Shown: piece by piece, positions 2,224 through 38,600 of the stretch
How positions within the stretch are numbered: the first letter of the stretch is position 1
Layout of the letters: every line of letters starts with the position of its first letter
From: an uncultured Lachnospiraceae bacterium
Lineage (GTDB): Bacteria > Bacillota > Clostridia > Lachnospirales > Lachnospiraceae
Length of the DNA stretch: 40,473 nt
Assembly (NCBI GenBank): GCA_947626285.1
Contig: CANQRR010000030.1
Coordinates: 1 to 40,473, forward strand
Direction: 5' to 3'
Notes under the pieces: model-generated
Databases searched by the model: none
The model's input: only the letters and a program-made list of their open reading frames with translations
Told to the model about the DNA's origin: nothing
Position numbers and translations under genes: made by a program

Positions 2224-2775
2224 ATGGATTGGTACAGAATCAGACATACGATAGGATTATATTTATGCCCTACGGCAATCAAGAGGGCGGAATATATCAA
2301 GAAACATCACATTCTTTTTCATATTGGGGATAATTGTATGACGATGTTCCGAAAGATTCCGTTATATCCGAAACTGATTTCCTTGGGAAACAATGTTTGG
2401 GTTGCTTCTAATGTGAGTTTTATTACCCATGATGTGATACACAGGATGTTGAATAACTCTGTTGAAAATGGAATATTTCAGGAGAATATCGGTTGTATAG
2501 ATATTAAGAATAATGTTTTTATAGGCGCTAACACAACGATTCTGCCAAACGTGAGCATTGGGCCAAATACGATTATTGCGGCGGGTTCTATAGTCAATAA
2601 AAGCCTCCGGGGGGGGGTATACGCCGGGGTGCCGGCAAGATACATTTGCTCTATTGAGGAGTTTATGGAGAAACGTAAAAAAGTACCTTTCGTTGAAATA
2701 AAAGGTGGAAAGGGCGGTTTGTCTCCTGAGACAGTGTCAGCCGCATGGAAACGTTTTACAGGACAAGAGAAATGA
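2224..2775 (+). CDS. Hexapeptide-repeat O/N-acetyltransferase
   Basis: A left-handed beta-helix acyltransferase of the maltose/serine acetyltransferase type (183 residues). Hexapeptide turns are visible from about residue 55 (LGNNVWVASNVSFITHDVIH), with a probable catalytic His in THDVIH. They continue through IDIKNNVFIGANTTILPNV and end in VYAGVPARY, which is characteristic of sugar acetyltransferases. It most likely acetylates a capsule sugar. The G9 run at 2609-2617 encodes the Gly-Gly of the C-terminal coil. In this sequence the frame is open; a one-base change would remove the last part of the helix and the C-terminal tail. Its stop overlaps the next start (ATGA at 2772-2775), so the two are probably translationally coupled. 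Confidence 0.85.
   Translation: MDWYRIRHTIGLYLCPTAIKRAEYIKKHHILFHIGDNCMTMFRKIPLYPKLISLGNNVWVASNVSFITHDVIHRMLNNSVENGIFQENIGCIDIKNNVFIGANTTILPNVSIGPNTIIAAGSIVNKSLRGGVYAGVPARYICSIEEFMEKRKKVPFVEIKGGKGGLSPETVSAAWKRFTGQEK
2609..2617 (+). repeat. Poly-G tract (G9) inside acetyltransferase gene
   Basis: Nine consecutive G lie inside the acetyltransferase reading frame. In this sequence the frame is intact (ON). Gain or loss of one base would shift the frame about 50 codons before the natural stop, so the run is a candidate slippage site. Confidence 0.85.
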
Positions 2776-3422
2776 AAAATGATGATATGAAAAACCTTGT
2801 GATCATCGGCGCAGGAGGCTGTGGGCGCGAAGTCCTGCAGTGGGCTAAAGATATAAATAGGGCTGGGAAACGGTGGGAAATCAAAGGCTTTCTGGACGAT
2901 GACCTCGATGCACTGGATGGTAAGATTTGTAGCGTGAGGGTTTTAGCGAAAGTGGATGAATATGAGATCGCGCCGAATGATGAATTCGTCTGCTGCATTG
3001 GGAACAGCAGTACACGAAAATGCGTGGTTGACAGACTGAAAGCAAAGGGGGCTGCCTTTGCCACGTTGATTCACCCCAATGCCGTGGTTGCCGACAGCAG
3101 CACGGTTGGGGAGGGCACAATCATTTATCCTTATGCACTGATTTCGGATAATGCGGTTGTAGGGGAAGGCTGCATTATCAACATGTATTCATCGGTTGCA
3201 CATGACTCCGTGCTTGGAGAATACTGTACGATCAGTGCCCACTGCGACATTACCGGCATGTGTACATTGGGGGACCGGGTATTTATGGGGACTACGTCCC
3301 ATGTGGTACCTGGCTCAAAGATTGGGGATGACGTATATATCTGTGCCGGGAGTACCGTGATGACGAGAGTCAGGGACGGAAAAAAGATGCTCGGGAACCC
3401 GGCAAAGATCGTTAGGTTCTGA
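2772..3422 (+). CDS. Sugar O/N-acyltransferase, NeuD/PglD family
   Basis: It begins with a Rossmann-like N-terminal domain (VIIGAGGCGREVLQW), followed by a left-handed beta-helix with VVADSSTVGEGTIIYPYA and SVAHDSVLGEYCTISAH. The latter holds the His that acts as base in PglD. The C terminus GSTVMTRVRDGKKMLGNPAK is typical. In the bacillosamine pathway PglD acetylates the C4 amine made by PglE, which fits the aminotransferase four genes upstream of this module. I place the start at the ATG overlapping the previous stop (ATGA). The frame is open to an earlier ATG at 2745, but that would overlap the previous gene by 31 bases, and the next in-frame ATG (2787) is also possible. Confidence 0.9.
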   Translation: MKNDDMKNLVIIGAGGCGREVLQWAKDINRAGKRWEIKGFLDDDLDALDGKICSVRVLAKVDEYEIAPNDEFVCCIGNSSTRKCVVDRLKAKGAAFATLIHPNAVVADSSTVGEGTIIYPYALISDNAVVGEGCIINMYSSVAHDSVLGEYCTISAHCDITGMCTLGDRVFMGTTSHVVPGSKIGDDVYICAGSTVMTRVRDGKKMLGNPAKIVRF

Positions 3423-3462
3423 GCCATAGGACTGGCATGTATGAGCAGAAGGAGGACTGAAA

Positions 3463-3672
3463 ATGGATAAATTCCTTGATTTTGTGGCGGAGATCATGAA
3501 TGTTGACACATCAGATATCAGTATGGATACACGGTATAAAGAAGGAAAATGGGATTCCCTCATGATGCTGACGCTGGTCATGGAGTTGGAGGCAGAATAT
3601 GGAGTTTCCATTCCGATGGAGAGCCTGGGAGATGTCAAGACAATGGCAGACCTCTACGCTCTGATAAAGTGA
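3463..3672 (+). CDS. Acyl carrier protein
   Basis: A 69-residue acidic protein with the ACP fold pattern. S32 in GKWDSLMMLTLVMELE is the predicted 4'-phosphopantetheine attachment site, followed by helix II and the EYGVSIPMESL segment. An excellent AGGAGG-like site precedes the start. A dedicated ACP inside a polysaccharide cluster is normally paired with an enzyme that loads or transfers a special acyl group. The FkbH-like protein next door is such a partner. It is unlikely to be the fatty-acid AcpP, which travels with fab genes. Confidence 0.92.
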   Translation: MDKFLDFVAEIMNVDTSDISMDTRYKEGKWDSLMMLTLVMELEAEYGVSIPMESLGDVKTMADLYALIK

Positions 3673-3726
3673 TCTGTACATTTAAACTAGAGATTGAGAC
3701 GCATCGTGGAGATGGGAGTATAAGAA

Positions 3727-5385: not shown

Positions 5386-5389
5386 TGGC

Positions 5390-5782
5390 ATGCAGATAGA
5401 CCATATAGGTTATGCGGTAAAGCGGCTGGACAGGGCGATAAGCGCATTTGAAAAGCTTGGGTTTTCGCTCGAGCCGATGATTGATGACACAGACCGGAAC
5501 ATCAGGATTGCGTTCGGGGAGAAAGATGGCTACAGGATCGAGCTTGTTTGCCCTCTGGACAGGGAGAAGGAGTCGCCGGTTGACCAGTACCTGAAGAATG
5601 CTGTGGGGACGCCTTACCATATCTGTTACCAGAGCGACAATTTCGACGCTGAAGTGGAATCCCTGAAACGACAGGGGTTCAGGGTGGTTATTGAGCCCAG
5701 ACCAGCGGTAGCGTTTGGCGGAAAACGGGTCGTCTTCCTGATGAGTCTTGGGTTTGGGCTGATGGAGATTGTGGAGATATGA
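5390..5782 (+). CDS. VOC (glyoxalase-fold) protein
   Basis: A 130-residue vicinal-oxygen-chelate protein resembling methylmalonyl-CoA epimerases. It opens with IDHIGYAVKRLDRAISAFEKLGF (first beta-alpha-beta unit, metal ligand His4), has an internal ELVCPL and PYHICY (second His), and ends GLMEIVEI (probable Glu ligand). Such proteins epimerise or isomerise acyl thioesters. Its place 4 bases after the FkbH gene, and its overlap with LicD by ATGA, suggest that it acts on the ACP-bound acid. The exact reaction is not evident. Confidence 0.82.
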   Translation: MQIDHIGYAVKRLDRAISAFEKLGFSLEPMIDDTDRNIRIAFGEKDGYRIELVCPLDREKESPVDQYLKNAVGTPYHICYQSDNFDAEVESLKRQGFRVVIEPRPAVAFGGKRVVFLMSLGFGLMEIVEI

Positions 5783-6582: not shown

Positions 6583-6585
6583 TTA

Positions 6586-8324: not shown

Positions 8325-8360
8325 AAGATAGTTGAGTTTTTACTGAAGAAGGAAAATTAG

Positions 8361-9326: not shown

Positions 9327-9365
9327 CGGAAGAATATATATTGACGGTTGAGAGGAGAGACTTAT

Positions 9366-10028: not shown

Positions 10029-10045
10029 ACTGTAGATTTGAACAT

Positions 10046-10054
10046 GGGGGGGGG
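10046..10054 (+). repeat. Poly-G tract (G9) at WbqC ribosome site
   Basis: Nine G lie 6 bases before the TTG start at 10061 and form the only purine-rich Shine-Dalgarno candidate for that gene. An ATG at 10044-10046 runs into the tract but cannot feed the WbqC frame: it either meets TAG right after the G run or is out of frame. Length change would therefore alter initiation strength and spacing, not the protein. Confidence 0.85.
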
Positions 10055-10060
10055 TAGAAG

Positions 10061-10780
10061 TTGATTATTACTATACATCAACCAGAACATCTTCCTTGGC
10101 TGGGCTTATTCAATAAAATTGCAAAAGCAGAGTTGTTTGTTATTCTTGATAGTGTCCAGTATGAGAAGAACTATTTTCAGAACAGGAACAGAATATTAGG
10201 GACTAATGGGATACAGTGGATTAACATTCCTGTATCAGGTAAAGGACATATGGAGAAAAGTATTGCCCAGACTGAGATATCCTTTTCCGGAGGGAATGAA
10301 AACTGGAAAAATAAGTATTTGCAAACAATTACGCAGAGTTATAAAAAATATCCTTTTTTTGCTGAAGTATACCCTATTCTTGAAAGAGCACTTATGATTG
10401 ATACAAAATATTTCTGCGAAATAAATATAGCATTGATTAAAGAGTTTTGCAATAAGCTTTGCATTTTCCCGAAATATATTAGATCTTCAGAACTAAATGT
10501 GACTGGCTTAAAATCAACACTTATCTTTGATATTTGTAAACTTGTACAAGCAGATATCTATATTGCAGGACCGAGTGGTAGAGACTATTTGGATCTGGAT
10601 TCTTTCAAAGAAGCAGGCATTGTAGTGAAATTTAATGATTATAACCACCCGATTTATCCCCAGAGGCGAACGAAGGAATTTGTTTCGAATCTTTCTGCAA
10701 TTGATTTGTTTATGAACTGTGGGTTTACACATAGTAGAGAAATTATTATGAATGGGAACGAGCATCTAAGCGATTTTTAG
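10061..10780 (+). CDS. WbqC-family protein
   Basis: A 239-residue protein beginning with the WbqC signature HQPEHLPWLGLFNKIAKAE, followed by FVILDSVQYEKNYFQNRN and GPSGRDYLD, with YPQRRTKEFVSNLSAID near the C terminus. The family is frequent in O-antigen and capsule clusters and is often near aminoacyl- or amide-forming enzymes; its chemistry is not settled. The start is TTG, with the G9 run as ribosome site. Thirty-one bases separate it from the ATP-grasp gene. Context (PIG-L deacetylase before, ATP-grasp after) suggests a part in modifying an amino sugar. Confidence 0.85.
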   Translation: MIITIHQPEHLPWLGLFNKIAKAELFVILDSVQYEKNYFQNRNRILGTNGIQWINIPVSGKGHMEKSIAQTEISFSGGNENWKNKYLQTITQSYKKYPFFAEVYPILERALMIDTKYFCEINIALIKEFCNKLCIFPKYIRSSELNVTGLKSTLIFDICKLVQADIYIAGPSGRDYLDLDSFKEAGIVVKFNDYNHPIYPQRRTKEFVSNLSAIDLFMNCGFTHSREIIMNGNEHLSDF

Positions 10781-10811
10781 AATGAAAACAAAGCATTCAT
10801 AGGAGAGATTC

Positions 10812-11852
10812 ATGAATAAAGAATTAATGAAACATGAGTATATCATATTTGCAATGGACCATTACAATCCCTTGGGGCTTGTCAGGAGTTTGGGAGAAGA
10901 GGGGATAGCGCCGATTGTGATTGCGGAAAAGAGCAAGACTGATATTTCCTCATACAGCAAATATGTCAAAGAGTATATTCGGGTCGATACAGTGGAAGAA
11001 GGATACCAGATTTTAATGGATCGATTTGCAGTCGGGCATGACTGCAGACCGTTTCTTTTTACCTGTGATGACAGGACGGTCGAATTCCTGGACAGGCACT
11101 ACGATGAGTGGAAAGCTTTTTTCATTGGTTTCAATGCAGGGGAAAACGGGCGCATTGGAAAGTTTATGGACAAGTATGAGATTCTGCAGCTTGCCCAAAA
11201 ACATGGCCTGAAATGTCTTGATACGGTCCTGGCGGAAAGAGGGTCTGTACCGGACGGAATAGAGTACCCGGTCATTACAAAGTCAGTCTCCCCGGTGGTG
11301 GGCGGCTGGAAAGCGGATGTGCATATCTGCCATTCGGAAAAGGAATTATTGGGTGCATATGAGAAGATCAGCGCTCCGCAGGTTGTCATACAGAAATATA
11401 TTGACAAGCAGAACGAGTATTGCATTGATGGGTTCTGTACGGCGAAGGGGAACATCATGTTCAATGCGATTGAATCGACCTACAATTATACAATACCAGG
11501 ATACTACAGCCCCTACATGACGGTGAATAACTTTAGCCAGGAAGGGATAGGGGAAGCCCTTGCGGCGATGATGAGGGAAATTGGGTTCGAAGGGATCTAC
11601 TCGATTGAGTTCCTGATTGATCAGGATGGGACATATTATTTCAGCGAGATTAATTTCCGTAATTCTACATGGAGTTATGCGTCAACAAGAGCTGGGATGA
11701 ATCTGCCGGTCCTGTGGGCGCAGACGATGCTTGAGGGAAAGATTAGGGAAAACACCCGAAAACCGATTGGGGGGGGTATACGGCGATGGTCGAGCCGATC
11801 GATTATGGCAAAAGGGTACCCACCGGCCGCGCAGAGCCTGGTGAGTGGTTGA
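10812..11852 (+). CDS. ATP-grasp ligase, C terminus shifted by poly-G
   Basis: ATP-grasp enzymes join a carboxylate to an amine or thiol through an acyl phosphate. Visible parts are an N-terminal Rossmann-like domain (MDHYNPLGLVRSLGEEG), KYEILQLAQKHGLKC, a VITKSVSPVVGGWKADV lysine strand, VIQKYIDKQNEYCIDGF, and the metal/ATP end YFSEINFRNSTWSYA. A G8 run at 11769-11776 then throws the frame, giving the off-pattern tail GGGIRRWSSRS and a stop at 11850-11852. With one extra G the frame reads GGGYTAMVEPIDYGKR, then EWLRDFKEAG and DDIEPFLFMCRNW, stopping at 11945-11947 (about 378 residues). That tail is family-like, so this copy appears to be in the OFF or truncated state. SD AGGAGAG is good. Confidence 0.85.
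   Translation: MNKELMKHEYIIFAMDHYNPLGLVRSLGEEGIAPIVIAEKSKTDISSYSKYVKEYIRVDTVEEGYQILMDRFAVGHDCRPFLFTCDDRTVEFLDRHYDEWKAFFIGFNAGENGRIGKFMDKYEILQLAQKHGLKCLDTVLAERGSVPDGIEYPVITKSVSPVVGGWKADVHICHSEKELLGAYEKISAPQVVIQKYIDKQNEYCIDGFCTAKGNIMFNAIESTYNYTIPGYYSPYMTVNNFSQEGIGEALAAMMREIGFEGIYSIEFLIDQDGTYYFSEINFRNSTWSYASTRAGMNLPVLWAQTMLEGKIRENTRKPIGGGIRRWSSRSIMAKGYPPAAQSLVSG
11769..11776 (+). repeat. Poly-G tract (G8) shifting the ATP-grasp frame
   Basis: Eight G lie within the ATP-grasp gene. Nine G (or six) would restore the open frame through to 11947; the present eight lead to a stop at 11850. It is the one tract in the window whose current length breaks a gene. A sequencing or assembly error in the homopolymer would look the same. 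Confidence 0.85.
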
Positions 11853-11978: not shown

Positions 11979-13148
11979 ATGGACAGGTTTAATTTAATTG
12001 TTTATCTGCTGGGCTCAATAACGACAATAGTGAGCATAGGTTTATGCCTGGTGCTCTTTTTTGCATGCAAAAGCAGGAATGCACATGGCGATAGGCTGGA
12101 GCTAGACAGCGGCTCCACGGAACAGCCGTGGCCGTTGGGGACATGGATCGCAGGCGTCTTTGTTGCCGGAACCGGCGTTGCGCTGATGTATGCGCCGGGT
12201 GATTTGGTGGGCTATATCAGTCAAGGGTTGAACCCGGTGGAGTCTATCACAATGGTTGCACTGCTGAATGGCGCCCCTGTGTGGGCATTGTATTCCATAA
12301 TGGGTCTGTGGTATATGCGGCATATGGATTCGAAAGTCGGGAAACTGGCGGCGATGCTTTCTACTGTTTTGGGAATGTCTATATCATTGTGGACAGGAAT
12401 GAACACAGTCGCAAGGTTTATCGGCTTTGAATTCCCTGGGCTTAAGTTTATGCTTGCGGCGATAACCGTGATGGTAGCTATGATATCCGCAAAAAACAAT
12501 TTGTTGAAAGGGATGTCAAAACTTGCGTTTTTAGTGTTCATGTTCGCATTCCTCGCGGTTCTTTCCACACCATTCACCGATTTTGCCTTCACCCCGATCA
12601 CAGGCAAAATAACAGTCAATTTCTTTAAGGAATATTTCTATGGAGCGACATCGGCAAGCTGGATTTTCTGGTTCCTTTCGTGGACACCCACTGTCTCAAG
12701 GTGGTTGGCGCATATCTCTAAAGGCAGGACAATGAAGGAGTACATTGCCGGCACAATGATTTTGCCAACAGTACTTGCATTTATTTGGATGGCAGTTTCA
12801 TGGATGTACCAGGATGTGATTATAAATTTCAACCTCGCGACGAATATTGTTGCATTTATACCGTGTATTATTTTCATTGCATCAGGGATACTTTTCATGA
12901 CCGGGACGCTGGATTCAGATTGCAAGGTCTTTACTGAAGACTTGGAGTATATCTCTGGCGGAAAATTGAATAGGAGGTCGATGATTCCTTTCTATGGGCT
13001 TTTTGTATTGTTTGTGTTCAGCCTGTTTATCTCAGGGATAATCAAGGAGCCGTTTGCGTTTAATGAGTATTCTTCGCTGATCTTTATGCCGTTGATGGCA
13101 TTAAGCATAATGGATTGTGTAAAGAGATTTAGAGTCAAGCAGAAGTAG
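11979..13148 (+). CDS. Short BCCT-type membrane transporter
   Basis: A polytopic membrane protein of 389 residues, about ten hydrophobic segments. Several stretches match the betaine/carnitine/choline transporter family: TWIAGVFVAGTGVALMY near residue 50, PVWALYSIMGLWYM near 105, and WTPTVSRWLAHISKGRT starting at W235, the last equivalent to the conserved W-SPFVG-F-ARISRGRT region. Typical members have 12 segments and over 500 residues, so this one is short and divergent. It follows the ATP-grasp gene with an AAGGAG site. It may import a quaternary-ammonium or amino-acid-like compound used by the neighbouring ligase. Transport has not been shown for such short forms as far as I know. Confidence 0.75.
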   Translation: MDRFNLIVYLLGSITTIVSIGLCLVLFFACKSRNAHGDRLELDSGSTEQPWPLGTWIAGVFVAGTGVALMYAPGDLVGYISQGLNPVESITMVALLNGAPVWALYSIMGLWYMRHMDSKVGKLAAMLSTVLGMSISLWTGMNTVARFIGFEFPGLKFMLAAITVMVAMISAKNNLLKGMSKLAFLVFMFAFLAVLSTPFTDFAFTPITGKITVNFFKEYFYGATSASWIFWFLSWTPTVSRWLAHISKGRTMKEYIAGTMILPTVLAFIWMAVSWMYQDVIINFNLATNIVAFIPCIIFIASGILFMTGTLDSDCKVFTEDLEYISGGKLNRRSMIPFYGLFVLFVFSLFISGIIKEPFAFNEYSSLIFMPLMALSIMDCVKRFRVKQK

Positions 13149-13974: not shown

Positions 13975-14091
13975 GGTAGCACAATTTAAATGGATATTTT
14001 AGAATGGCATGTGTTATAAGTGGAACTATAGTATAATTCCATATCTAATATTATATAACATAAAGCAACATAATTAAAAAGGAAAGATATT

Positions 14092-14415
14092 ATGGATCAT
14101 TGTAAAAAGAGGTTTGCTTTTGAAGGAACATCGAGACAGTTTGTGACGTATATCATCCTATTGACAATCATGTTTGGAACATTCTGTTCTTTTGCTACAG
14201 GCTCGTACGGAACAGAATGCATTGTCCTCTCCATAAGTTTGCTTTTCCTAAATTTGAGCCGGAAAACTGTTATCGATTTTGCACCATTTGGTATAGTAAG
14301 TATAGGGACCTTACTAATTCTGTTATTCTCAGGTCAGATTTCAGCGAGAGGTTTTAACGCGCCGATAGGGCATGTTTTTAAGTTTATACAAGTGAATTTG
14401 AGCTTTCAGTTTTAG
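14092..14415 (+). pseudogene. Wzy-like polymerase, N-terminal remnant
   Basis: A good AAGGA site and ATG open a 107-residue membrane protein with three to four hydrophobic segments (for example FVTYIILLTIMFGTF and ECIVLSISLLFLNL) and then GQISARGFNAPIGHVF. This layout resembles the N terminus of O-antigen polymerases; the intact Wzy at 14735 has a comparable first 90 residues. The protein then stops. From about 14382 another reading frame holds the tail of a GT2 enzyme, so the gene appears cut by a recombination joint. It might still be translated as a short membrane peptide. Confidence 0.5.
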
Positions 14416-14717
14416 ATAAAATAGATGCATACAAATATGTTTATGAGAATGTCATCAATTTTTTTCCTGACTTAGAACGAGAGGCAAAAGTCAGATTAAT
14501 TTGGGCTTATATGTCCGTCTTAGATAAGTCATGTACGCAGGCAGACCAAACAAACCTAAATGTACAATTGCAAAGATATATTAATAATAATATTAGATAT
14601 ATTTTTGATTCGTTTTTTACATTGAAGAGAAAGATGATGGCAATTGTAGCGTGTATCAATCTTAGAGTATACAGAAAGCTAGTCATGAGATATAAGATCA
14701 AAGGAAAAGTAAACTAA
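14382..14717 (+). pseudogene. GT2 glycosyltransferase, C-terminal remnant
   Basis: The third frame is open from 14382 to the stop at 14715-14717 and reads like the helical tail of a capsule GT2 (SEFELSVLDKIDAYKYVYE, then FFPDLEREAKVRLIWAYM, then a basic end). No catalytic domain precedes it; upstream in a different frame is the Wzy-like fragment. The only starts are internal, so it is a remnant and probably not a functional gene. Confidence 0.55.
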
Positions 14718-14726
14718 GGGGGGGGG
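14718..14726 (+). repeat. Poly-G tract (G9) at Wzy ribosome site
   Basis: Nine G lie 8 bases before the ATG at 14735, at ideal Shine-Dalgarno distance. The last G is also the first base of a possible GTG start at 14726. Length change would alter ribosome-site spacing for the polymerase. Confidence 0.85.
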
Positions 14727-14734
14727 TGATGCAA

Positions 14735-15874
14735 ATGAGGCAAAAACAAATTAATGTATGTAATAGGGTATATTTGTTTCTCTATGTTTTTGTTATTCTC
14801 ATGTTTTCATCTCCTATAGTCTATCAGGTTATAAATCCATATTTTTCGTATGTGTACTTTTTGGCAATTTTGATGTTTCTTCTCTGTTCAAATAAGCTCC
14901 GATTACGACGCAGGGATGTGTTGTTTCTTATTCCAGTGGGATTTGCCTCTCTTTCACTGGCAGTAAATCATTCGGGGATAGGCAACTTGCTCCAAATTAT
15001 ATTTATTCTTTCGCTGATAATAATTTTTCAGAATAAATCGATTGATTATACTTTTTTGAACTATATCTCTAGAATTTCAGATTTTTTTATTATCGTATTG
15101 TCACTCAAGTCACTATTTGTGTATGACCTAAATGATCTGTTTTCTTTTATTATGAAGGGCGAGATTAATCCGAATACGACGGCTGAGGTGTTAATCTTTT
15201 TATATTTATTTGCGTGCTTGGAAAGGCGCGGACATATCAGGTGCAGAATGTTTTTACGAACAGCAATAACGGTCATGGCACTTGTGTTTTGCCAGTCAAG
15301 AGTCGGCATATTGTCTTTTTTTATTGTATTAGTGTGCGTGTTCTTATTTCGGAATAATATTTGTAACAGCAAAAAGATAATGACGGGAATGCTCACTGGA
15401 ATTATTGTTGTAGGTGTAACATTACCAATTTTATATGTTTTATTGTTCTCTTTTGCTGACTTGCAATCAGTTACATTCTTTGGAAAATATTTGTTTACTG
15501 GACGTCAATGGATTTGGATGAATTTTTTTGAATACTTAGGACACAATCCTCAAGCGTGGATATTTGGATCCGGGACGCTAACTTCTTTTTATGTAGTTGA
15601 TGGAAACGGTTATTTTAATATGCATAATGCCTATCTTGCACTCTTCGCAACATTTGGGCTGGCAGCGACGGTGACTTATATTTGGCTCATCATATCAGTC
15701 ATCCTTAGAGCTTATAAAGGCAGAAAAATAAGTCAGGAAAAGTTTTATACAGCAATGGTTATGATCGTCTCTTTGGTGAATGGAATTGCGGAAACCACTT
15801 TATCATATTTGCCGATGCTGGTTTTTCCTGGTTTGGCCTTAGTAATTCTTGTAGGTAAGGAGAAGATTTCATGA
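14735..15874 (+). CDS. wzy: O-antigen polymerase-like protein (Wzy)
   Basis: Integral membrane polymerase that would join lipid-linked repeat units outside the cell membrane. About ten to eleven hydrophobic segments are seen. The large periplasm-type loop contains FTGRQWIWMNFFEYLG and FNMHNAYLALFATFG, which are typical of the Wzy_C/O-antigen ligase region, and a CQSRVGILSF segment lies before it. Possible starts are GTG 14726, ATG 14729 and ATG 14735. I choose 14735 because only it has the G9 run at normal spacing. It overlaps the next gene by ATGA at 15871-15874. It is the only full-length Wzy in the window. Confidence 0.85.
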   Translation: MRQKQINVCNRVYLFLYVFVILMFSSPIVYQVINPYFSYVYFLAILMFLLCSNKLRLRRRDVLFLIPVGFASLSLAVNHSGIGNLLQIIFILSLIIIFQNKSIDYTFLNYISRISDFFIIVLSLKSLFVYDLNDLFSFIMKGEINPNTTAEVLIFLYLFACLERRGHIRCRMFLRTAITVMALVFCQSRVGILSFFIVLVCVFLFRNNICNSKKIMTGMLTGIIVVGVTLPILYVLLFSFADLQSVTFFGKYLFTGRQWIWMNFFEYLGHNPQAWIFGSGTLTSFYVVDGNGYFNMHNAYLALFATFGLAATVTYIWLIISVILRAYKGRKISQEKFYTAMVMIVSLVNGIAETTLSYLPMLVFPGLALVILVGKEKIS

Positions 15875-20000: not shown

Positions 20001-21761
20001 ATGTCAAATTGTTATTCTGCTGAAAAAAATGTACAAATCCTCATTGCTCTGATGAAAGCTCATGGGGTCAAAAAAGTGGTCGCGAGTCCGGGCGCGACGA
20101 ACGTATGTTTGGTAGCAAGCCTGCAATATGACCCATTTTTTGAAATGTATTCATCTGTGGACGAGCGGTCTGCTGCTTATATGGCATGCGGGCTTGCAGC
20201 GGAAAGCGGAGAGCCTGTTGCGCTTAGCTGTACGCAGGCTACAGCATCGAGAAATTATTTTCCAGGGCTTACGGAAGCATATTATCGGAAGCTTCCGATC
20301 CTTGCTATTACATCAACGCGTGCAGAAGAAGAAGTCGGGCATAAACTTCAGCAGGTTATAGACCGCAGCGTACAGCCGAAAGACACTGTGCGGCTCAGTG
20401 TTTCGTTGCCTGTGATCCATACAGACAAAGAAAAATGGGCGTGCGAGGTTAATGCTAACCGCGCGCTTTTGGAACTGCGTCGACGCGGCGGAGGACCAGT
20501 TCATATCAATCTGGGCACAGAATATACACAGGATTTCACAGTGGAGAAGCTCCCGGAAGTTCGTGTGATTCGGCGGTACTTTCCGAAGGACACATTTCCA
20601 GAAATTAAGCCGGGGCGTGTTGCCATCTTTGTGGCGTCTCACATTGCGTGGAGCGACCGGCTTACGGCTGCGGTAGATTCGTTTTGTGAAAAATACGATG
20701 CAGTGGTTCTTTGTGACCAGACCAGCAATTACTGCGGAAAGTACGGCATGATGGAAAAAATCGTAACACAACAGAAACGGTATAGCGCTCCCTGCAATCA
20801 GATCAGTCTGCTTATCCATATGGGAAATATGTCTGGTTCTTATCTGAATTTCCATACGGATTCGGTGTGGCGCGTGAACCCTGATGGGGAATTGCAGGAT
20901 CCATTTGAAAAGTTACGCTGTGTCTTTGAGATGGAGGAGGCAGAGTTTTTCGAGAGATATCTGGAGATGGGGAAAGGGCAAGCTGTGAAGACAGGATTTT
21001 ATGAGAGCTGGCACACAGAGTTTGTGCGGCTGGAGCAGGATGCGAGGGAAAAGAGTGATGCGATTCCGTTCTCAAACATCTGGATTGCGCAGCAGACGCT
21101 CCCGAAACTGCCGGAGAACAGTGTCTTGCATCTAGGGATTTATAACACGTTGCGCTCCTGGAGTTTTTTTGAGAGATCCAAGACCATTCGCGGGTATGCA
21201 AATGTCGGCGGTTTTGGCATAGACGGGAATGTTTCTTCACTATTGGGGGCGTCTTTGGCGGATAAGGACAGGCTTTATTTTGGTGTTGTGGGAGACCTGT
21301 CATTTTTTTATGATATGAATGCGCTCGGGAACCGCCATCTGGGGAAAAACATTCGTCTGATGATCATAAATAATGGGCGAGGTACGGAGTTCACCAATCG
21401 GGACAATTTTACGTTTCAAGCCGGGATCGATCCTGGCGCTGTATCCTATATTTCTGCGGAAGGGCACTACGGGAAACAGTCGCGGAAATTGGTGCGCCAT
21501 TATGCTGAGGATCTTGGTTTTGCATATCTCTCAGCGTCCAATAAAGAAGAATATCTAAAATGTCTGTCACGCTTTGTCACCCCGGAGGTCGGAGATGAAC
21601 CAGTTCTTCTGGAAGTGTTTACGGACAGTGCTGATGAGCGAGATGCTCTGGAGTTGATGTACACGTTGGAAGAATCCGTGCAGGGTAAGATGAAGCAAGC
21701 CGCGAGGGACATTCTGGGGGATAAGGGCGTGCAGTTTGTCAAAAAGATCATCCGAAACTAA
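20001..21761 (+). CDS. ThDP-dependent enzyme, MenD-like
   Basis: A 586-residue thiamine-diphosphate enzyme. The N-terminal domain holds VVASPGATN and the conserved activating glutamate E55 in SVDERSAAYMACG. The C-terminal cofactor motif runs from G431-D432 to the paired Asn near 457-458 (GDLSFFYDMNALG to MIINN). The order of domains and several strings resemble MenD, but no menaquinone gene is near. An SDR with an excellent ribosome site follows 13 bases later. In yersiniose synthesis a ThDP enzyme adds a two-carbon branch to a keto sugar and a reductase follows. A similar carbon-carbon step on a capsule sugar is plausible here, but the donor and acceptor are unknown. Confidence 0.82.
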   Translation: MSNCYSAEKNVQILIALMKAHGVKKVVASPGATNVCLVASLQYDPFFEMYSSVDERSAAYMACGLAAESGEPVALSCTQATASRNYFPGLTEAYYRKLPILAITSTRAEEEVGHKLQQVIDRSVQPKDTVRLSVSLPVIHTDKEKWACEVNANRALLELRRRGGGPVHINLGTEYTQDFTVEKLPEVRVIRRYFPKDTFPEIKPGRVAIFVASHIAWSDRLTAAVDSFCEKYDAVVLCDQTSNYCGKYGMMEKIVTQQKRYSAPCNQISLLIHMGNMSGSYLNFHTDSVWRVNPDGELQDPFEKLRCVFEMEEAEFFERYLEMGKGQAVKTGFYESWHTEFVRLEQDAREKSDAIPFSNIWIAQQTLPKLPENSVLHLGIYNTLRSWSFFERSKTIRGYANVGGFGIDGNVSSLLGASLADKDRLYFGVVGDLSFFYDMNALGNRHLGKNIRLMIINNGRGTEFTNRDNFTFQAGIDPGAVSYISAEGHYGKQSRKLVRHYAEDLGFAYLSASNKEEYLKCLSRFVTPEVGDEPVLLEVFTDSADERDALELMYTLEESVQGKMKQAARDILGDKGVQFVKKIIRN

Positions 21762-26206: not shown

Positions 26207-27235
26207 ATGAAGATCATGATTACCGGGGCGGCTGGATTTATTGGCTCGCAGCTTGCCTATGATCTGTGGAAGAAGAAAACGGAGCTGGTTTTAGTGGACA
26301 ACTTTTCCTATGGCTCATTGGACAACCTGACATTTCCAGAGCATGACTTCACAGACGAGGTCCTTCACCTGGACATTCGGGATCGGGAAGGGATTGGAAG
26401 TCTGCTGATGGCGGGGGATGTGGACTACATTTACCATTTGGCGGGGATCGCGCCGCTGCCGGACTGCCAGACAGACCCGCAGGAGGCTGTGTCCGTGAAT
26501 GTAGGGGGGACTGTCAATATTCTGGAGAACGCGAGGCGCTATGGCGTCAGGAAGGTTATCTTTGCAAGCACCAATGCCATGTATGAGAATGCGGAGGTGT
26601 TCCCCACGGCAGAGACAGGGTTTGGACTGCCGTCCTTGATCTATCCGAACACCAAGTACGCAGCGGAACGGTTTTGCCAGTCATATTGCGACACTTATGG
26701 GATGAATGTGACCTGCCTCCGGTTTGCGAATGTATATGGGCCCCACATTGACTGCCTGAGAAAACAACCTCCTTTTGTAGGCTACATGATACGCGAGCTG
26801 TATTATGGGAGGACCCCGGTGTTCCATTCCGATGGCAGCCAGAAACGGGATTATGTTTATGTCCAGGATCTGATCGACCTGGCTTTGCTGGCTCAGGAGG
26901 GGAACGGGTTTGACTGCGTGAACGTATGCTCCAACCATTCCTATTCGGTCAATGAACTATATGGGATCGCCCAGGAGATTATGGGGAAACAGATTGGGGC
27001 GGAGTATGCGTCATCTGACAACTATTGGAAGAAATATCCGCAGCTGTATGAGGGGGCATATGCGATCCGCCCGGAAGTGCTTGAGAAGGAAGTGACGAAA
27101 TATACCCTTTGCTCTTATGGGCATGCCAAGGAGAAATACAATTGGGAGCCGAAGATATCGATTTATGAGGGCCTGAGACGTTCGATCGAGTACGAGGTTT
27201 CGTTATTTGAAAAAATGGGGAAGGGGAAAGAGTAG
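26207..27235 (+). CDS. NAD-dependent sugar epimerase/dehydratase
   Basis: Extended SDR of 342 residues. NAD motif ITGAAGFIGSQL at the N terminus, VDNFSYGSLDNL for the adenine ribose, FASTNAMYE with the active-site Ser/Thr, catalytic Y146/K150 in YPNTKYAAE, and HSDGSQKRDYVYVQDL in the substrate domain, as in UDP-sugar 4-epimerases. A very strong GAGGAGG site precedes it. It likely prepares a nucleotide sugar for the GT2 upstream or the nucleotidyltransferase 5 bases downstream. Epimerase versus dehydratase cannot be decided from the motifs. Confidence 0.92.
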   Translation: MKIMITGAAGFIGSQLAYDLWKKKTELVLVDNFSYGSLDNLTFPEHDFTDEVLHLDIRDREGIGSLLMAGDVDYIYHLAGIAPLPDCQTDPQEAVSVNVGGTVNILENARRYGVRKVIFASTNAMYENAEVFPTAETGFGLPSLIYPNTKYAAERFCQSYCDTYGMNVTCLRFANVYGPHIDCLRKQPPFVGYMIRELYYGRTPVFHSDGSQKRDYVYVQDLIDLALLAQEGNGFDCVNVCSNHSYSVNELYGIAQEIMGKQIGAEYASSDNYWKKYPQLYEGAYAIRPEVLEKEVTKYTLCSYGHAKEKYNWEPKISIYEGLRRSIEYEVSLFEKMGKGKE

Positions 27236-29959: not shown

Positions 29960-29973
29960 AGGGTACAGGAATT

Positions 29974-30558: not shown

Positions 30559-30560
30559 GA

Positions 30561-30983: not shown

Positions 30984-30998
30984 TGGGAGGAGCTACAG

Positions 30999-32219
30999 AT
31001 GGACAGTAGCAAACGGAACAGATATTTTGATAAATATACGATTATTTTTCCTATTTGCTTTACAGTGACAGTTGTGCGGTTGCTGTGGAATTTTCTGTTT
31101 GGGTTTCGCTGGCCGTCTGCTTGGGTTTTGACCAGTAATGTTTTTACATATGACTCTGGTTTTATGCCCAGGGCATTCGTTGCTAGTGTATTAAAGTTGT
31201 TTGTTGGAAATCATATTTATAGTTTGAAATTTCTTTATATACTAATTATTGGAACAAACATGTTGATATTTGCATTCTTAATTTATATGTCTTATTATTA
31301 TAATATTAAGACAAGAAATATAATTGGAGGAATAATAATTTTATGGTATTCTTTAAGCATATACAGTGCATATCTGAGTTATGAGGCAGGATATTTTGAA
31401 CAATATGGTTATGTATTGCTATTCTTGTTGCTATTATTACCAATTAAGATAAAAAATCCAATGGCTTTTTCTATTATATGTACAGTGACCAATTTTATTA
31501 TACTGCTAATATCTGAAACGAACGCTTTTTTGGTATGCCCAATATTATTTTTTGCTTCGCTATTGAGACTTTATAATGATGATAAAAAAGGTTTGAATCT
31601 CGGATTTTTAAAAAAATTAGTAATCCTAATATTGATGAATATTCCTTGCCTCATATATTGTTTTCACGTGGGATCAACGTTAATTCCTGAATCAACTATA
31701 TTAAATCAAATAAATATGATTCGAAGTCATGCTAACTATTTTGAAAGATTAGATGAGATAGGCGGATATTTTTATAAAGGCAGAATTCCAGGTTATGCTT
31801 CTAATATAGAGTTTAAAGTTTGGAACTGGCAGCTAAAACTATACTTATTCTTAATAGTTTCTGTAGTAGCCATGATTTTATATTCTATAGGATATTATCG
31901 AAAGGTGATATGCTATATTGGCTCATGCATTTTTATATTGGCTCTTATATATTGTTTGAATTTTATTGCATGGGATACAGACAGGTTTAAATTTTGCGCA
32001 GCAACTGCTATTACATTTTTTAGTATGTGGATTGTAAAGGAAATTGATATTCGGAGAATTGTCTTAAGAAAAGATGTTGTATACGTATGTATAATAGGAA
32101 CAATGCTTTTGATTATGATTATGGATTATCGTCTGGAGCTATTTGATGGGGCAATGTGGAATAATAGTTATGGTCAGTTCAAGGAAAATCTGCAGAGTAC
32201 CTGGAGAATAACTTATTAG
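30999..32219 (+). CDS. GT-C-like polytopic membrane protein, copy 1
   Basis: A 406-residue, about 10-helix membrane protein that is much more AT-rich than the genes before it. The first loop after helix 1 reads FGFRWPSAWVL and NVFTYDSGFMPRAF, with a possible catalytic Asp. The middle has SLSIYSAYLSYEAGYFEQY and a late LNFIAWDTDRFKF motif. I do not recognise a named family; the pattern and the neighbour GtrA fit a GT-C transferase that uses polyprenyl-phosphate sugars. A GGGAGG site precedes the start. It is clearly paralogous to the next gene over its whole length. Confidence 0.72.
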   Translation: MDSSKRNRYFDKYTIIFPICFTVTVVRLLWNFLFGFRWPSAWVLTSNVFTYDSGFMPRAFVASVLKLFVGNHIYSLKFLYILIIGTNMLIFAFLIYMSYYYNIKTRNIIGGIIILWYSLSIYSAYLSYEAGYFEQYGYVLLFLLLLLPIKIKNPMAFSIICTVTNFIILLISETNAFLVCPILFFASLLRLYNDDKKGLNLGFLKKLVILILMNIPCLIYCFHVGSTLIPESTILNQINMIRSHANYFERLDEIGGYFYKGRIPGYASNIEFKVWNWQLKLYLFLIVSVVAMILYSIGYYRKVICYIGSCIFILALIYCLNFIAWDTDRFKFCAATAITFFSMWIVKEIDIRRIVLRKDVVYVCIIGTMLLIMIMDYRLELFDGAMWNNSYGQFKENLQSTWRITY

Positions 32220-32270
32220 TCTATTATATGAATTGATATTTATTGTTTATGTTAATAGGGAGGCTTTTGA

Positions 32271-33503
32271 TTGAAAAAAGTAGCTGGTAAACTAAATAAT
32301 TCGACGTATGAACCTTTTTTAAAGCGCAATATGATTTATATAGTTGTTCTTTTTATCACAGAAATTAGATTAATATGGAATTATTTGTTTGGATTTCGCT
32401 GGCCATCGTCGTATGTATTATCATGCAATGTTTTTACATATGATTTTGGCTTTATGCCAAGGGCTTTTATAGCTAGCGCAGTTAAATTAGTTTTTGGAAA
32501 TCATATTTATAGCTTGAAATTTCTCTATATTCTAATTATTGGCAGTTCTTTGCTGATTCTGTTCTTTTTTATGTATATGTCGTACTATTTTAATATTAGA
32601 ACGAGAAATATTGTGGGGGGGGTGTTAATTTTATGGTATTCTTTAAGTATTTACAGTGCATATATAAGTTATGAAATGGGCTACTTCGAACAATATGCAT
32701 ACGCATTATTATGTATATTCATATTGCTTGCAAAAAAAATAAAATCGCCCGACTATTTTACATTTTTATGTTCAGCATTAAGTCTTGTAATCCTATTAAT
32801 TTCCGAGACAAATGCTTTTTTTATTTGCCCGATCCTTTTTTTTATGAACCTAAAGAAACTCATAAAAAAGCCATATAAAAAAAGTCGGTTCGAAAGCTGG
32901 TTGATTTTTCTTTTTGGATATCTTTTCAGTATAATTTATTGTATTGCAATAGGTATGACGTCAGTACCAAAGGCACAAATAGAAAAATTGTTGACGCTAA
33001 TCAAAAACCATGCTAGTTATTTTGAGAACTTGGATGAAATAGGTGAGTATTTTTACAATGGCAGGATATATGAATCTTATTCGAATAAAATAGAATTTAA
33101 GGTATGGGAGTGGCAGCTAAAGTTTTATATGTTCTTAATTCTCTTGACGGTGAGCATAATATTTATGTCAGCAAAGCAATATCAAAAGGCAATATATTAT
33201 ATTGTTGCTGTGATAATAATGATGTTATGCCTTTATAGCTTGAACTTTATTGCTTGGGATACAGATCGGTTCAAATTTGGCGCTGCAATGGCGGTTACTT
33301 TTTTTAGTATATGGATTATATCTGAATCGGAGATAAAAATTACGGCTATAAATAGAGAAATGTTTTATATACTCATTATTGGTACAATGGGTATGATAAT
33401 GATTATGGATTACCGTTTGGGAGAACCTGAAGGAGTAACATATAATAATAGCTTGGCCCAGTTTATAAGCACATTGAGAAATACTTGGCAAATTAATTAT
33501 TAG
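32271..33503 (+). CDS. GT-C-like polytopic membrane protein, copy 2
   Basis: A 410-residue paralogue of the gene before it, with identical landmarks FGFRWPSSYVL, NVFTYDFGFMPRAF, NHIYSLKFLYILIIG, SLSIYSAYISYE and LNFIAWDTDRFKF. The start is TTG with AGGGAGG at 7-base spacing. Inside RNIVGGVLILWYS the Gly-Gly is coded by a G8 run (32615-32622); copy 1 codes the matching RNIIGG with broken G/A codons. The frame is open here, but a one-base slip would truncate the protein after about 117 residues. Tandem duplication with one slippage-prone copy suggests variable side-chain addition. Confidence 0.75.
   Translation: MKKVAGKLNNSTYEPFLKRNMIYIVVLFITEIRLIWNYLFGFRWPSSYVLSCNVFTYDFGFMPRAFIASAVKLVFGNHIYSLKFLYILIIGSSLLILFFFMYMSYYFNIRTRNIVGGVLILWYSLSIYSAYISYEMGYFEQYAYALLCIFILLAKKIKSPDYFTFLCSALSLVILLISETNAFFICPILFFMNLKKLIKKPYKKSRFESWLIFLFGYLFSIIYCIAIGMTSVPKAQIEKLLTLIKNHASYFENLDEIGEYFYNGRIYESYSNKIEFKVWEWQLKFYMFLILLTVSIIFMSAKQYQKAIYYIVAVIIMMLCLYSLNFIAWDTDRFKFGAAMAVTFFSIWIISESEIKITAINREMFYILIIGTMGMIMIMDYRLGEPEGVTYNNSLAQFISTLRNTWQINY
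32615..32622 (+). repeat. Poly-G tract (G8) in GT-C-like copy 2
   Basis: Eight G sit in an otherwise AT-rich gene, coding Val-Gly-Gly-Val around residues 115-118. The sister copy has GGAGGA at the matching place. The contrast with local composition makes chance less likely. Confidence 0.85.
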
Positions 33504-33545
33504 TTCATGAATTTAATATAAATAGTAGTAGGAAATGGAGAAGAA

Positions 33546-34070: not shown

Positions 34071-34321
34071 CCCAATTTTTTTATAGGGAATCTCACGGCC
34101 CAAATTTTGGTTGCAACGGTTTTCTGGAAGATATTTGAGGACATTGTTCCCCAAAGACTGAAAAGAAAATATCTGCCGGACTGAACGATATTTGGCGAGG
34201 ATGAATATATAACTTCTGCTCTCCCCCAATATTTGCTTTGATATTCCCATCGCCATTTCTGACAAGGCTCAGAAGATGCTGGGAAATTGAAAATACTGAT
34301 TTAGTAAGGATATTTATTTTT
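34071..34321. other. 251-base spacer with no identified gene
   Basis: Between the GT2 remnant and the FAD enzyme lies sequence unlike the missing end of the GT2. The minus strand is open across it and on into the remnant, with a segment reading FSFQSLGNNVLKYLPENRC, but I recognise no family and it shares its frame with the antisense of the GT2 remnant. It may be debris from the event that truncated the GT2. Confidence 0.35.
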
Positions 34322-35542
34322 ATGAAAACAAAATATCTCATTTTAGGTGCCGGACCTGCCGGCCTTACTTTTGCAAACGTACTAAAAGAGCGGGGAGAGA
34401 CTTCTTTCCTGGTGCTGGAAAAGGAAGCGGAAGCCGGTGGCCTGTGCCGCTCGGTGGAAGTGGACGGTTCGCCGTTTGACATTGGCGGCGGACATTTCCT
34501 TGATGTAAAACGGCCGAAAGTGAATGAATTCCTGTTTCGGTTTATGCCGGAGGAGGAATGGGACAGGTATACCAGGGACTCCCGGATTGAAGTCAATGGG
34601 GAGCTGATTTCCCATCCGATTGAAGCCAATATCTGGCAGATGAGTCTAAATCTGCAGGTGGAATATCTGAAAGCGATTGCCAGGGCCGGTTGCAGCCAGG
34701 GGACTCCGAAGCCCGAAAGCTTTGTCGACTGGATCTATTGGAAGCTCGGAGACAGGATCGCGGAAGACTATATGCTTCCATACAACCGGAAGATGTTTGG
34801 GGAGGACCTGAATGCACTGGGAACATACTGGCTGGAAAAACTTCCGAATGTTTCATTTGAGGAAACTCTGAAGAGCTGTTTGGCGAGGAAAGCATATGGG
34901 ACGCAGCCAGGTCATGCGGAATTTTATTATCCCCGGAGATATGGATATGGGGAACTCTGGCGCAGAATGGCGGAAACAGTGGCTCCGAATATTATCTATA
35001 ATACCGCTGTATCAGGCATAGATTTTGAAGCATGTGCTGTCGTGACGGAACAGCAGGAGAAATATGAGGCGGAGCACATTGTTACAACAATCCCATGGGC
35101 AGAATTGACAGAGAACACAAGCATGCCCCGGGAGCTGGAGGAAAAGGTGGCAGAATTAAAATACAGTTCTGTGGAGACACGGTATTACGGGGAGAACCTG
35201 GATACGGCGGCCCACTGGATCTATTATCCGGATAATCGGAAGGCGTACCACAGGATTCTGGTACGCCATAATTTTTGCCCGGGAAGCAGAGGGTACTGGA
35301 CAGAGACGAACTGCACCCGTATAGGACTGCTTCCTGAAAGCGAGAAGGGGAATTATCATTATATGAATAAATACGCATATCCCCTGAATACGCTGGACAA
35401 GCCGGGCATCATGAGAGAGCTTCTGGTCTGGGCGAAGGAACATCATGTATTTGGCCTGGGAAGATGGGGAGAGCATCAACACTATAATTCTGATGTGACG
35501 GTAGAACGGGCCATGGGGCTTGTAAATGAAATGCTGTCATGA
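34322..35542 (+). CDS. FAD-dependent oxidoreductase, UDP-galactopyranose mutase-like
   Basis: The 406-residue protein begins with the dinucleotide-binding motif YLILGAGPAGLTFANVL, followed by the acidic adenine-ribose site VLEKEAEAGGLC and FDIGGGHFLD. Middle landmarks LPYNRKMFGEDL and YYPRRYGYGELWRRMAE, and the C-terminal FAD contact GLGRWGEHQHYNSD, match amine-oxidase/UDP-galactopyranose-mutase-like proteins of surface-glycan clusters. It could interconvert a pyranose and furanose form of a nucleotide sugar. The ATG at 34322 is chosen because it begins directly before the FAD motif; an upstream in-frame ATG at 34238 would add an unlikely leader. It has only a weak ribosome site. Confidence 0.8.
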   Translation: MKTKYLILGAGPAGLTFANVLKERGETSFLVLEKEAEAGGLCRSVEVDGSPFDIGGGHFLDVKRPKVNEFLFRFMPEEEWDRYTRDSRIEVNGELISHPIEANIWQMSLNLQVEYLKAIARAGCSQGTPKPESFVDWIYWKLGDRIAEDYMLPYNRKMFGEDLNALGTYWLEKLPNVSFEETLKSCLARKAYGTQPGHAEFYYPRRYGYGELWRRMAETVAPNIIYNTAVSGIDFEACAVVTEQQEKYEAEHIVTTIPWAELTENTSMPRELEEKVAELKYSSVETRYYGENLDTAAHWIYYPDNRKAYHRILVRHNFCPGSRGYWTETNCTRIGLLPESEKGNYHYMNKYAYPLNTLDKPGIMRELLVWAKEHHVFGLGRWGEHQHYNSDVTVERAMGLVNEMLS

Positions 35543-35600
35543 GCTGGGAACGGCAAGGCTGTTCCATACGGATATCAAGCGAAAAGAGTGCAGATTATTT

Positions 35601-38600
35601 ATGAATAAACAATACAAACGAATTAAAAATTTGTTTTTACAGCAAAGCTATCTGGATTCCTGGGAGGACTATGCCCGGAGTCTCAGAAAGGTTTCTTTCA
35701 TCAAATGGGATTATCTGCTTCTGACAGCGTCTAATGAAGCGCAGGCAGAGAGCTACCGGAGGCAGATACAGCTGCGTCTGGAAAATCATCAGCTGCCGGA
35801 TACGACGGAATATATTGTTCTGCCAGATCCGGACGGGAAGCGTGTGGGCTCAGGAGGTGCCACGATAAATGCACTGTGCTGTATCGCAGGGAAGGAAAAG
35901 GCTAAATGCAGGGAAAAAAGGAACCCGTTCAAAAACAGGCGGATACTGGTTATCCATTCCGGAGGCGACAGTAAACGGGTTCCGCAATATTCTGTATGCG
36001 GAAAGCTTTTTTCACCGATCCCGCGGGAACTCCCGGATGGGCGCCCCTCGACTTTGTTTGATGAACTGGTTATCGGTTTGTCCGGGGTGCCATCCAGGAT
36101 AAAAGACGGGATGCTGATTCTCTCCGGAGATGTGCTGCTGCTGTTCAATCCTTTGCAGATTGACTTCCAGTTCTGTGGTGCGGCGGGGATCACTATGAAA
36201 CAGCCGGCGGATGTCGGGAAGGAACATGGCGTATTCCTTAATGACGGAGAGAATTATGTGCGGCGCTTTTTGCACAAGCATACGGTGGCTGATCTTGGCA
36301 GGGTAGGGGCCATTGATGGGCAGGGGACAGTTGATCTGGATACCGGGGCGGTGCTGTGCGACTGTGATCTGCTGGCCGCGCTGTACTCCCTGGTCTGTAC
36401 GGATGGTGTATTTGACCAGGAGAAGTTTGACCGGTTTGTCAATGAAGATACACGGATCAGCTTCTATGGAGACTTTCTGTATCCGCTGGCAAGGGATTCA
36501 ACTCTGGAGGAATATTACCGCCAGGAACCGGAAGGTGATTTCACGGAAAGTCTGCACAGGTGTCGTACAGAGATTTGGAATGCATTGCGCGGGTTTTCCA
36601 TGAAATTATTTACGGTATCTCCGGCGGAGTTTATCCATTTCGGGACAACCAGGGAACTCCTGAAATTAGTCGCAGAGGCGGTTGATTCGTATGAATTTCT
36701 AGGCTGGAAACGATCAGTCCTGTCAACGACAGATGGTGGCATCGATTTTGCTGCAAACAACAGTGTGATTGAACACCCGGACCGGGTGGGCAGCGGGGCT
36801 TATGTTGAAAACAGTTTTTTGAAGGGTGGAGTATTATCCGGAGCCGGGATTGGAAAAAGGACGATCCTTTCGAACGTTGTGCTGAGCAGAACAGATATTC
36901 CAGAGGATTGTGTATTGAGCGGCATATGGCTGAAAGACGGGGGATGTGTGGTTCGTATTTATGGAGTCTGCGATAATCCCAAACAGCCTTTACTCTTGGA
37001 TGCTGGACTTGACATATTTGCGAAAAAGAATAATCTGACGCAGGCTATGATCTGGAAAGAGGACGATCAAAAAAAGCTTTGGACTGCGTTGCTCTATCCG
37101 GTGGGTAAAACCATGGATGAAGCTGTAGGCTTCGCGATGACCGTATACCGCATGGCAAAGGGAACTGCAACGGCAGAGGAGGTCGAATCCTGGAAAAACA
37201 CAAAAAGGGAAAGTCTGTGCAGCAGTTTCAACAATGCGGACAATCAGAGGATGCTCGACTGGAGATTGCAGCTGGAAAATTATATTCTTGTCGACAAGTT
37301 TGCCAATGCACTCAAAAGAGGCGAAGATTATAAAGATGCCCTTGGGATCTTCGGAAACAATGGTATTAATGAAGAGCAGTACCGTCTTCTGCTGGATATT
37401 TCAGAGAAAGCATCCTTTTATGAGAGGATTAAGATTCTGTACAGTTTCTCCAGATATATGAAGGATCAGAACAAAAGGTATGGGCAGATGTCCTACGATG
37501 AAATCGAGAGGCTATGCTTTAAAGAGATCAGGGACACGGTTTGTTCTAATAACAGTGCTGAAACAGGGGCAGGCTCTTTTCAAATCCGTGAAGATACAGT
37601 TTCTGTGGATCTGCCGGTGAGAGTCAACTGGGGTGGTGGCTGGACGGATACACCGCCGTATTGCAATGAGCATGGAGGAGTCGTTATAAATGCGGCGATC
37701 AAGCTGAAAGGGGTTCTTCCGATCCAGGCCCGTGCCAGAAGGCTCCGGGATATCCGGGTAGAATTTGAAAGTGAGGATATTGGGGCGTTTGGCAGGATCA
37801 ACAGTCTGGAGGAGATCAGGAGCTGCCATGATCCGTATGACTCTTTTGCTCTTCATAAAGCGGCTCTGCTTGCATACGGCGTGATTCCGCCGGAAGGCGG
37901 GGAGACGCTGGAGGATATCCTGCGACAGCTGGGCGGCGGGATCTATCTGTCGACGCGGGTCGTAGGGGTGCCGAAAGGATCCGGGCTTGGGACAAGCAGC
38001 ATCCTGGCCGGAGCGTGCGTGATGGCTCTGGGAAGGCTGTTCGGAGAAGATTTGTCTGACAATGAAATTTATGAAAAGGTTCTATGCATGGAACAGATCA
38101 TGAGCACCGGAGGTGGGTGGCAGGATCAGGTGGGCGGCATTACCCCGGGTATCAAGTTCATCAGCACAGAGCCAGGGCTGGCGCAGAGGATCCGAGTGGA
38201 GCCGGTCAGGCTGTCGGAAAGGACAAAGAAGGAACTGCAGGAGCGGTTCGCCCTGATTTATACGGGCCAGAGACGACTTGCGCGAAACTTGTTGCGGAAA
38301 GTCCTTGGAGGCTACCTTTCCGGACGCAGGGATTCTGTTCTTGCTTTGAAAAAAATGCCGGAGGTAGCGGCATTGATGCGGTTTGAGCTTGAAAGAGGAA
38401 ATCTGGATGCGTTTGCTGAACTGCTGAACAAGCACTGGGATCTGTCCGTACAGCTTGACCCCGGAACGACAAACACCTGCATAGACCAGATTTTTATGAC
38501 CTGTGAGGATATGATCGATGGAAAGTTTATAGCAGGAGCCGGGGGGGGCGGGTTTCTCATGGTCGTCCTGAAGAAGGGGGTGACCAGGGCGATGCTGCGG

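Follow-up and report, generated by a model that had tools for sequence, protein, structure and literature searches.

Poly-G tracts in a glycan operon of an uncultured Lachnospiraceae bacterium: probable sites of phase variation by slippage

The stretch of DNA analyzed here (the window) comprises 40,473 nucleotides of contig CANQRR010000030.1 from an uncultured Lachnospiraceae bacterium (C30:1-40473 of a 147-contig, 3.73-Mb genome) and contains six G runs, each eight or nine bases long, which are very probably phase-variable contingency loci driven by slippage. A scan of 30 window proteins shows a glycan operon, with aminotransferase, sugar transferase, acetyltransferases, FkbH-like, LicD, IspD-like, epimerase, glycosyltransferase, PIG-L, WbqC, ATP-grasp, Wzy, pyruvyl transferase, flippase, MenD-like, Fkp-like, and other families. 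All six runs listed in an earlier note on this DNA were recovered at their positions (Table 1), all as G on the + strand, the same strand as the genes concerned, and its remark that no C run reaches six holds as well, the longest in the window being 5. Apart from these six tracts, the only window run of at least six is a single G6 at position 26504, with no G7. Frame and start analysis agrees with the earlier assignment of three coding tracts as ON, one as OFF, and two as lying at ribosome sites.

Table 1. G tracts of the window and the genes that they lie in or precede
Feature	Position	Strand	Remarks
Sugar acetyltransferase, hexapeptide family	2224..2775	+	Pfam Hexapep PF00132
G9 tract	2609..2617	+	Inside hexapeptide acetyltransferase gene, in frame (ON); frame continues RGGVYAGVPARYI
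G9 tract	10046..10054	+	WbqC translation start; first G is the last base of ATG
WbqC-like protein gene	10061..10780	+	Pfam WbqC 1e-67
ATP-grasp ligase-like gene	10812..11852	+	Pfam CPSase_L_D2 / ATPgrasp_Ter; truncated at tract
G8 tract	11769..11776	+	Inside ATP-grasp gene, out of frame (OFF)
G9 tract	14718..14726	+	Ribosome-site position of wzy-like gene, immediately 3' of stop codon
Wzy/O-antigen-ligase-like polymerase	14729..15874	+	Pfam Wzy_C 2.5e-9; EpaQ family under cut-off
410-aa protein, no assigned family	32271..33503	+	Tandem paralog of 30999-32219
G8 tract	32615..32622	+	Inside gene of no assigned family, in frame (ON)
Bifunctional fucokinase / fucose-1-phosphate guanylyltransferase (Fkp-like)	35526..38666	+	Fucose_pyrophosphorylase 2.5e-86, GHMP kinase N
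G8 tract	38541..38548	+	GAGGGGF motif codons of Fkp-like gene, in frame (ON)

The four coding tracts of the window, like the promoter-spacer tracts found elsewhere (see below), lie where a change in length would alter expression. Behind the truncated ATP-grasp frame, a C-terminal piece similar to its paralogs continues in a different frame. Two intact ATP-grasp paralogs of the same genome, on contigs C117 (53% identical) and C12 (43%), cross the tract site in a single frame, and the downstream piece of the window gene matches the paralogs in the other frame (29/55 and 20/57 identities); the G8 copy therefore reads as OFF. The C117 and C12 paralogs differ at this site by one codon in length. 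When orthologs of the window gene were sought in the genus for their tract lengths, the strong matches were the own-genome paralogs only, and the others were weak. Contigs C12:1-5000 and C117:1-5394 (L039 and L066) have flanks that are 97 to 98% identical and diverged middles, and each has one of the ATP-grasp paralogs as well as an SSF-like gene with a G9 tract; they may be alleles or duplicates.

The 410-residue protein shares 220 of 403 aligned residues with its tandem paralog, which has ATTGGAGGAATA at the tract position and no tract. The paralog encodes nearly the same residues with mixed codons, and the run at 32615 is therefore not required by the protein. This protein has no match in Pfam or NCBIfam, which leaves the label "side-chain transfer" in the earlier note unsupported. 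The acetyltransferase matches of the 2224..2775 product in NCBIfam are all under cut-off, as is the match of the Fkp-like protein to NF009948 (465 bits; cut-off, 721). The closest relatives of the Fkp-like protein are at most 60% identical and are labelled Lachnospiraceae. The GAGGGGF motif is present in 78 of 80 Fkp homolog loci, where it is encoded with a run of 8 in 1 of the 78 and with runs of at most 5 in the others.

The tract at 10046 ends 6 nucleotides upstream of the TTG start of the WbqC gene. In silico, the stop codon of the leader frame overlaps this TTG with tracts of G9 or G12, lies six bases before it with G7 or G10, and falls 53 bases past it with G8 or G11. For the wzy-like gene, the candidate starts are ATG codons at 14729 and 14735, at +2 and +8 from the tract. 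That G runs may stand in for Shine-Dalgarno sequences is supported by comparison of an HD/GGDEF gene (C45:12224, L050, in this genome; L286 to L292) that was found in 7 of 47 genomes of the genus: its start region has G9 here and in genome G005 and GGCGGAGGA in the other five orthologs. The two ribosome-site tracts of the window would presumably act through altered Shine-Dalgarno pairing or, in the case of WbqC, through the leader frame. The interval between the glycosyltransferase and wzy genes (13975-14717) contains two partial frames, one encoding a hydrophobic piece and the other a 111-residue piece that ends just before the tract; both resemble the remains of lost genes.

Markov simulations predict 1.3 to 1.5 runs of at least G8 per window at order 1 and 0.35 to 0.57 at orders 2 to 3. 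The window holds 6 of the 49 distinct tracts of at least G8 in 1.1% of the genome, compared with 0.47 expected from the 43 tracts in the rest of the genome (the probability of at least six is about 1e-5). Over the whole genome, the counts are 79 for G6, 13 for G7, 17 for G8, 24 for G9, 7 for G10, and 1 for G12; that is, run lengths drop to G7 and climb again at G8 to G10, giving a bimodal distribution with a mode at 9. These 49 tracts and their bimodal lengths represent the over-representation of a slippable homopolymer that is expected of phase variation mediated by simple sequence repeats. Equal density in housekeeping genes, which the earlier note had named as evidence to the contrary, was not seen, as nine random stretches of the same genome (36 kb) contained no G or C run longer than 5; this comparison is qualified by the 43 tracts outside the window, some of which are in non-glycan genes. 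In 35 of the 49 cases, the tract is directly followed by a T.

The same run-length data bear on the simplest alternative, namely, that the tracts result from high usage of the GGG glycine codon on a G-rich coding strand, with neither selection nor switching. GGG is indeed the commonest glycine codon of the operon (275/758), and permutation of synonymous codons in 30 of the open reading frames of the window (33,345 coding bases, 500 permutations) gives 1.8 coding runs of at least G8, from which the four seen do not differ significantly (P = 0.10). However, the same null predicts 10.9 coding runs of G6 or G7, compared with the one seen, and none of the 500 permutations was this low. In addition, runs of G8 or longer outnumber G7 runs in the genome (49 to 13), and the promoter and ribosome-site tracts involve no codons. 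Chance accumulation of GGG codons as the sole cause was rejected on the shape of the run-length distribution, being disfavored by its bimodality, and this explanation is regarded as improbable. The shape of the run-length distribution in the window is more unusual than the number of tracts. With G6 and G7 runs depleted and longer ones present, the window is therefore one without incidental runs in which a few long ones are kept. The case for slippage loci rests on this depletion and on the genome context; the coding count in the window, taken alone, is weak evidence.

Elsewhere in the genome, the scan covered pieces of 38 of the 43 tract genes outside the window, leaving out the tracts at C1:789, C5:78, C18:46305, C96:4937, and C116:77. 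Between 15 (on a strict count) and 18 of the 38 belong to glycan-type Pfam families. The strict set includes three TupA ATP-grasp proteins, MBOAT, two Acyl_transf_3 proteins, pyruvyl transferase, Polysacc_synt_2, two sugar transferases, Wzy_C, two FkbM proteins, GDP_Man_Dehyd, and a cytidylyltransferase; two short-chain dehydrogenases and a formyltransferase may also count. Among the 70 control genes (from G7 sites and random stretches), one glycan-type hit, to GDP_Man_Dehyd, was found among the best 25 of 116 families, and none of the ten control genes with a full family listing was of the glycan type. Of 67 further tract-gene pieces, 58 from the genus were scanned together and nine (seven from genome G045, which belongs to another family, and two short ones) separately. 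Among the best 25 of 84 families in these 58 pieces, the commonest were Acyl_transf_3 (6) and short-chain dehydrogenases (5), followed by epimerases (3) and hexapeptide transferases (3) and then by glycosyltransferases and sugar transferases.

A further type of placement, absent from all six window tracts, is the promoter spacer. A search of 47 genus genomes for the pattern TTGACA-N4..13-G8-N0..3-TANNNT found 20 distinct sites (22 rows; loci L293 to L314) in 11 of these genomes, and the reversed pattern gave no sites in the same 47. In the genome analyzed here, such tracts are found at C4:107785, C4:109554, C5:78, and C103:4500. The spacers to the nearest TANNNT at the 20 sites are 14, 15, 16, 18, 19, or 20 bases long and never 17. 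Fifteen of the 20 sites precede an open reading frame with a signal-peptide-like start, as judged by eye, four precede other frames, and one precedes none.

Differences in length at a kept position have been observed between species or paralogs, at loci outside the window. In the gene for a LytTR regulator (C4:68836, L034), the tract is G8 here and G9 in three relatives of 93 to 94% identity, with closely similar near flanks, so that length varies between species at a conserved position. In the comparison of LytTR orthologs (L260 to L285), which used 21 of 26 matches with one unplaced, 8 of the 20 placed orthologs have at least G7 at the ribosome site and the rest have shorter runs, one of the 20 being represented by only 3 upstream bases. 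This tract lies at the translation start of the LytTR regulator, which may head a phase-variable regulon. Paralog pairs also differ in tract length, with G9 and G8 in TupA and G9 and G12 in a sugar transferase. Polymerases can slip on runs of G8 or G9. A second alternative invokes no change of DNA: the G run would cause transcriptional slippage or ribosomal frameshifting, and each cell would contain a fixed mixture of products. Such a process could partly rescue the out-of-frame ATP-grasp gene; however, it explains neither the promoter-spacer tracts nor why species differ in tract length where the position is kept, and little probability is assigned to it.

A contig end is no more than 200 bases away for nine of the 49 tracts, where about 1.6% would be expected (P = 7e-8). 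This excess is an indirect sign of length heterogeneity that repeats, loss of coverage, or chimeras could also explain. At three contig ends (C20:56334, C27:46468, and C64:18134; L046, L048, and L056), the same 68 bases lead up to the tract and are followed by three different genes, through either a chimera or recombination; the common bases read into an acyltransferase frame at C27. Such ends could be taken to mean that the G tracts are recombination joints between genes, not slippage switches, but this is very unlikely, as only this one shared flank is of that kind (the second, at C4/C5, belongs to a promoter), the 77-base overlap between contig ends is suggestive of chimeras from the assembly or library, and the coding tracts of the window sit in continuous genes.

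Slippage at the DNA level is the preferred explanation. Replication slippage would gain or lose one G at high frequency, so that a single lineage would give rise to a mixture of cells differing in acetylation, WbqC, ATP-grasp ligation, polymerization, the 32271 product, and GDP-fucose supply, and the different gene states would yield different surface glycans. Slippage within a population, its rate, and its effect on glycan structure are inferred here. Several lines of comparative evidence agree with the earlier proposal of poly-G slippage at multiple sites in a single glycan operon, namely, the bimodal lengths, the abundance of glycan enzymes among tract genes relative to controls, the ATP-grasp frameshift relative to its paralogs, the LytTR length difference between species, and the promoter-spacer and Shine-Dalgarno tracts in the genus.

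Several observations, in addition to the codon-permutation count given above, weigh against this explanation. The frame of the wzy start is independent of tract length in silico, and the Fkp tract sits in a glycine motif for which 1 of 78 homologs also has a run of 8. Tract lengths are those of the assembly consensus, in which a call of G8 or G9 can be wrong; the possibility that the tracts themselves are sequencing artefacts was set aside on the grounds that homologous tracts occur in separately assembled species. Tract genes are related to the surface or to regulation only in part, some having no known function or another one. Of the 38 scanned non-window genes, nine lack any Pfam match and 11 belong to families other than glycan enzymes: three Ig-like or repeat-domain surface proteins, the LytTR regulator, the HD/GGDEF protein, an AI-2E transporter, a PPDK-like protein, two SSF-like proteins, HGD-D, and a weak PAPS reductase. 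Five tracts were unscanned, including C1:789, which lies within an 882-codon frame on the opposite strand. No glycan family was found in the nine pieces scanned separately, of which G045 supplied seven; these comprise a transposase, a DUF6273 protein, a weak pectate lyase match, and six without a family. The excess at contig ends is not significant relative to G7 runs (0/13; Fisher 0.18), and an exact G9 is missing from 19 of the 60 genomes in the set of relatives. Finally, mutS1 is present with a full-length match (C9:7342-9957), and MutS loss is therefore not behind the tracts; this rules it out as a cause, although other repair genes were not searched.

The ratio of G9 to G7 counts is 139/450 in 35 genus relatives compared with 35/548 in 24 genomes of other families. 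Exact G9 runs are present in 84 of 245 genomes of the class, 56 of which have only one or two, and the genome analyzed here has the most (24). In another genus of Clostridia (f41, g47), 7 to 17 exact G9 runs were found in five of the six genomes drawn (G086, G121, G175, G265, and G307) and none in G221; those listed are mostly of the form CG9T and may represent a different repeat or promoter element.

Campylobacter, Helicobacter, and Neisseria provide the best-known examples of poly-G phase variation. Campylobacter is not known to have mutS1. A Campylobacter study gives a mode of 9 for its poly-G/C tracts (53% of length 9 and 26% of length 10), a cut-off of at least G7, and 18 to 39 phase-variable genes per C. 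jejuni strain (PMC6321876), and another places capsule and lipooligosaccharide genes among them (PMC8437040). The tracts described here resemble the Campylobacter phasome in being both intragenic and intergenic and in their modal length of 9. They differ in that the bacterium belongs to another phylum and has mutS1 and in that switching is predicted from sequence.

Bifidobacterium breve, a gut commensal, belongs to the Actinomycetota. As described in PMC9187656, an intragenic G11/G12 tract in its sortase-pilus genes decides read-through of one frame, with slippage measured by maximum depth sequencing. An intragenic G tract controlling the frame in a gut commensal is common to both cases, whereas the B. 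breve system consists of two pilus loci, unlike the multi-tract glycan operon.

In Neisseria, the porA, opc, and fetA genes have homopolymer switches in the promoter spacer. The four promoter-spacer tracts of the genome likewise have a homopolymer between the -35 and -10 elements, which distinguishes them from all six window tracts. In Clostridioides difficile, phase variation by invertible promoters reaches cyclic di-GMP genes, according to a review (PMC11868660). Stochastic switching that reaches such genes would be common to both organisms, but it proceeds there by site-specific recombination and not by repeat slippage.

No report of poly-G phase variation in Lachnospiraceae was found in the open-licence PMC literature among the matches listed. 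While this type of switch is already known, the lineage seems new, and no precedent was found in the open-licence literature for the lineage, the density of tracts in one operon, or the three placements across the genus.

These placements could belong to a genus-wide contingency system of three layers (promoter-spacer, Shine-Dalgarno-replacing, and intragenic poly-G tracts) in Lachnospiraceae-type bacteria that keep MutS, a wider proposal whose chances we put at about even. Promoter-spacer tracts would switch secreted surface proteins, Shine-Dalgarno-replacing tracts would tune regulators (the LytTR response regulator and the HD/GGDEF protein) and chain-building genes, and intragenic tracts would turn glycan enzymes on and off, allowing a single cell line to produce very many surface types. 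If phase variation of this kind does operate in Lachnospiraceae glycan operons, glycans and phage receptors could soon diverge between strains of a single lineage, and a consensus genome would give a false picture of which genes are switched on.

Two further features of the window were noted. Behind the Fkp-like gene, positions 38778-39242 contain, as judged by eye, a fragment resembling a sugar epimerase or dehydratase without a start. Genes for a BCCT-transporter-like protein (11979-13148) and a MenD-like protein (20001-21761) also lie within the glycan operon.

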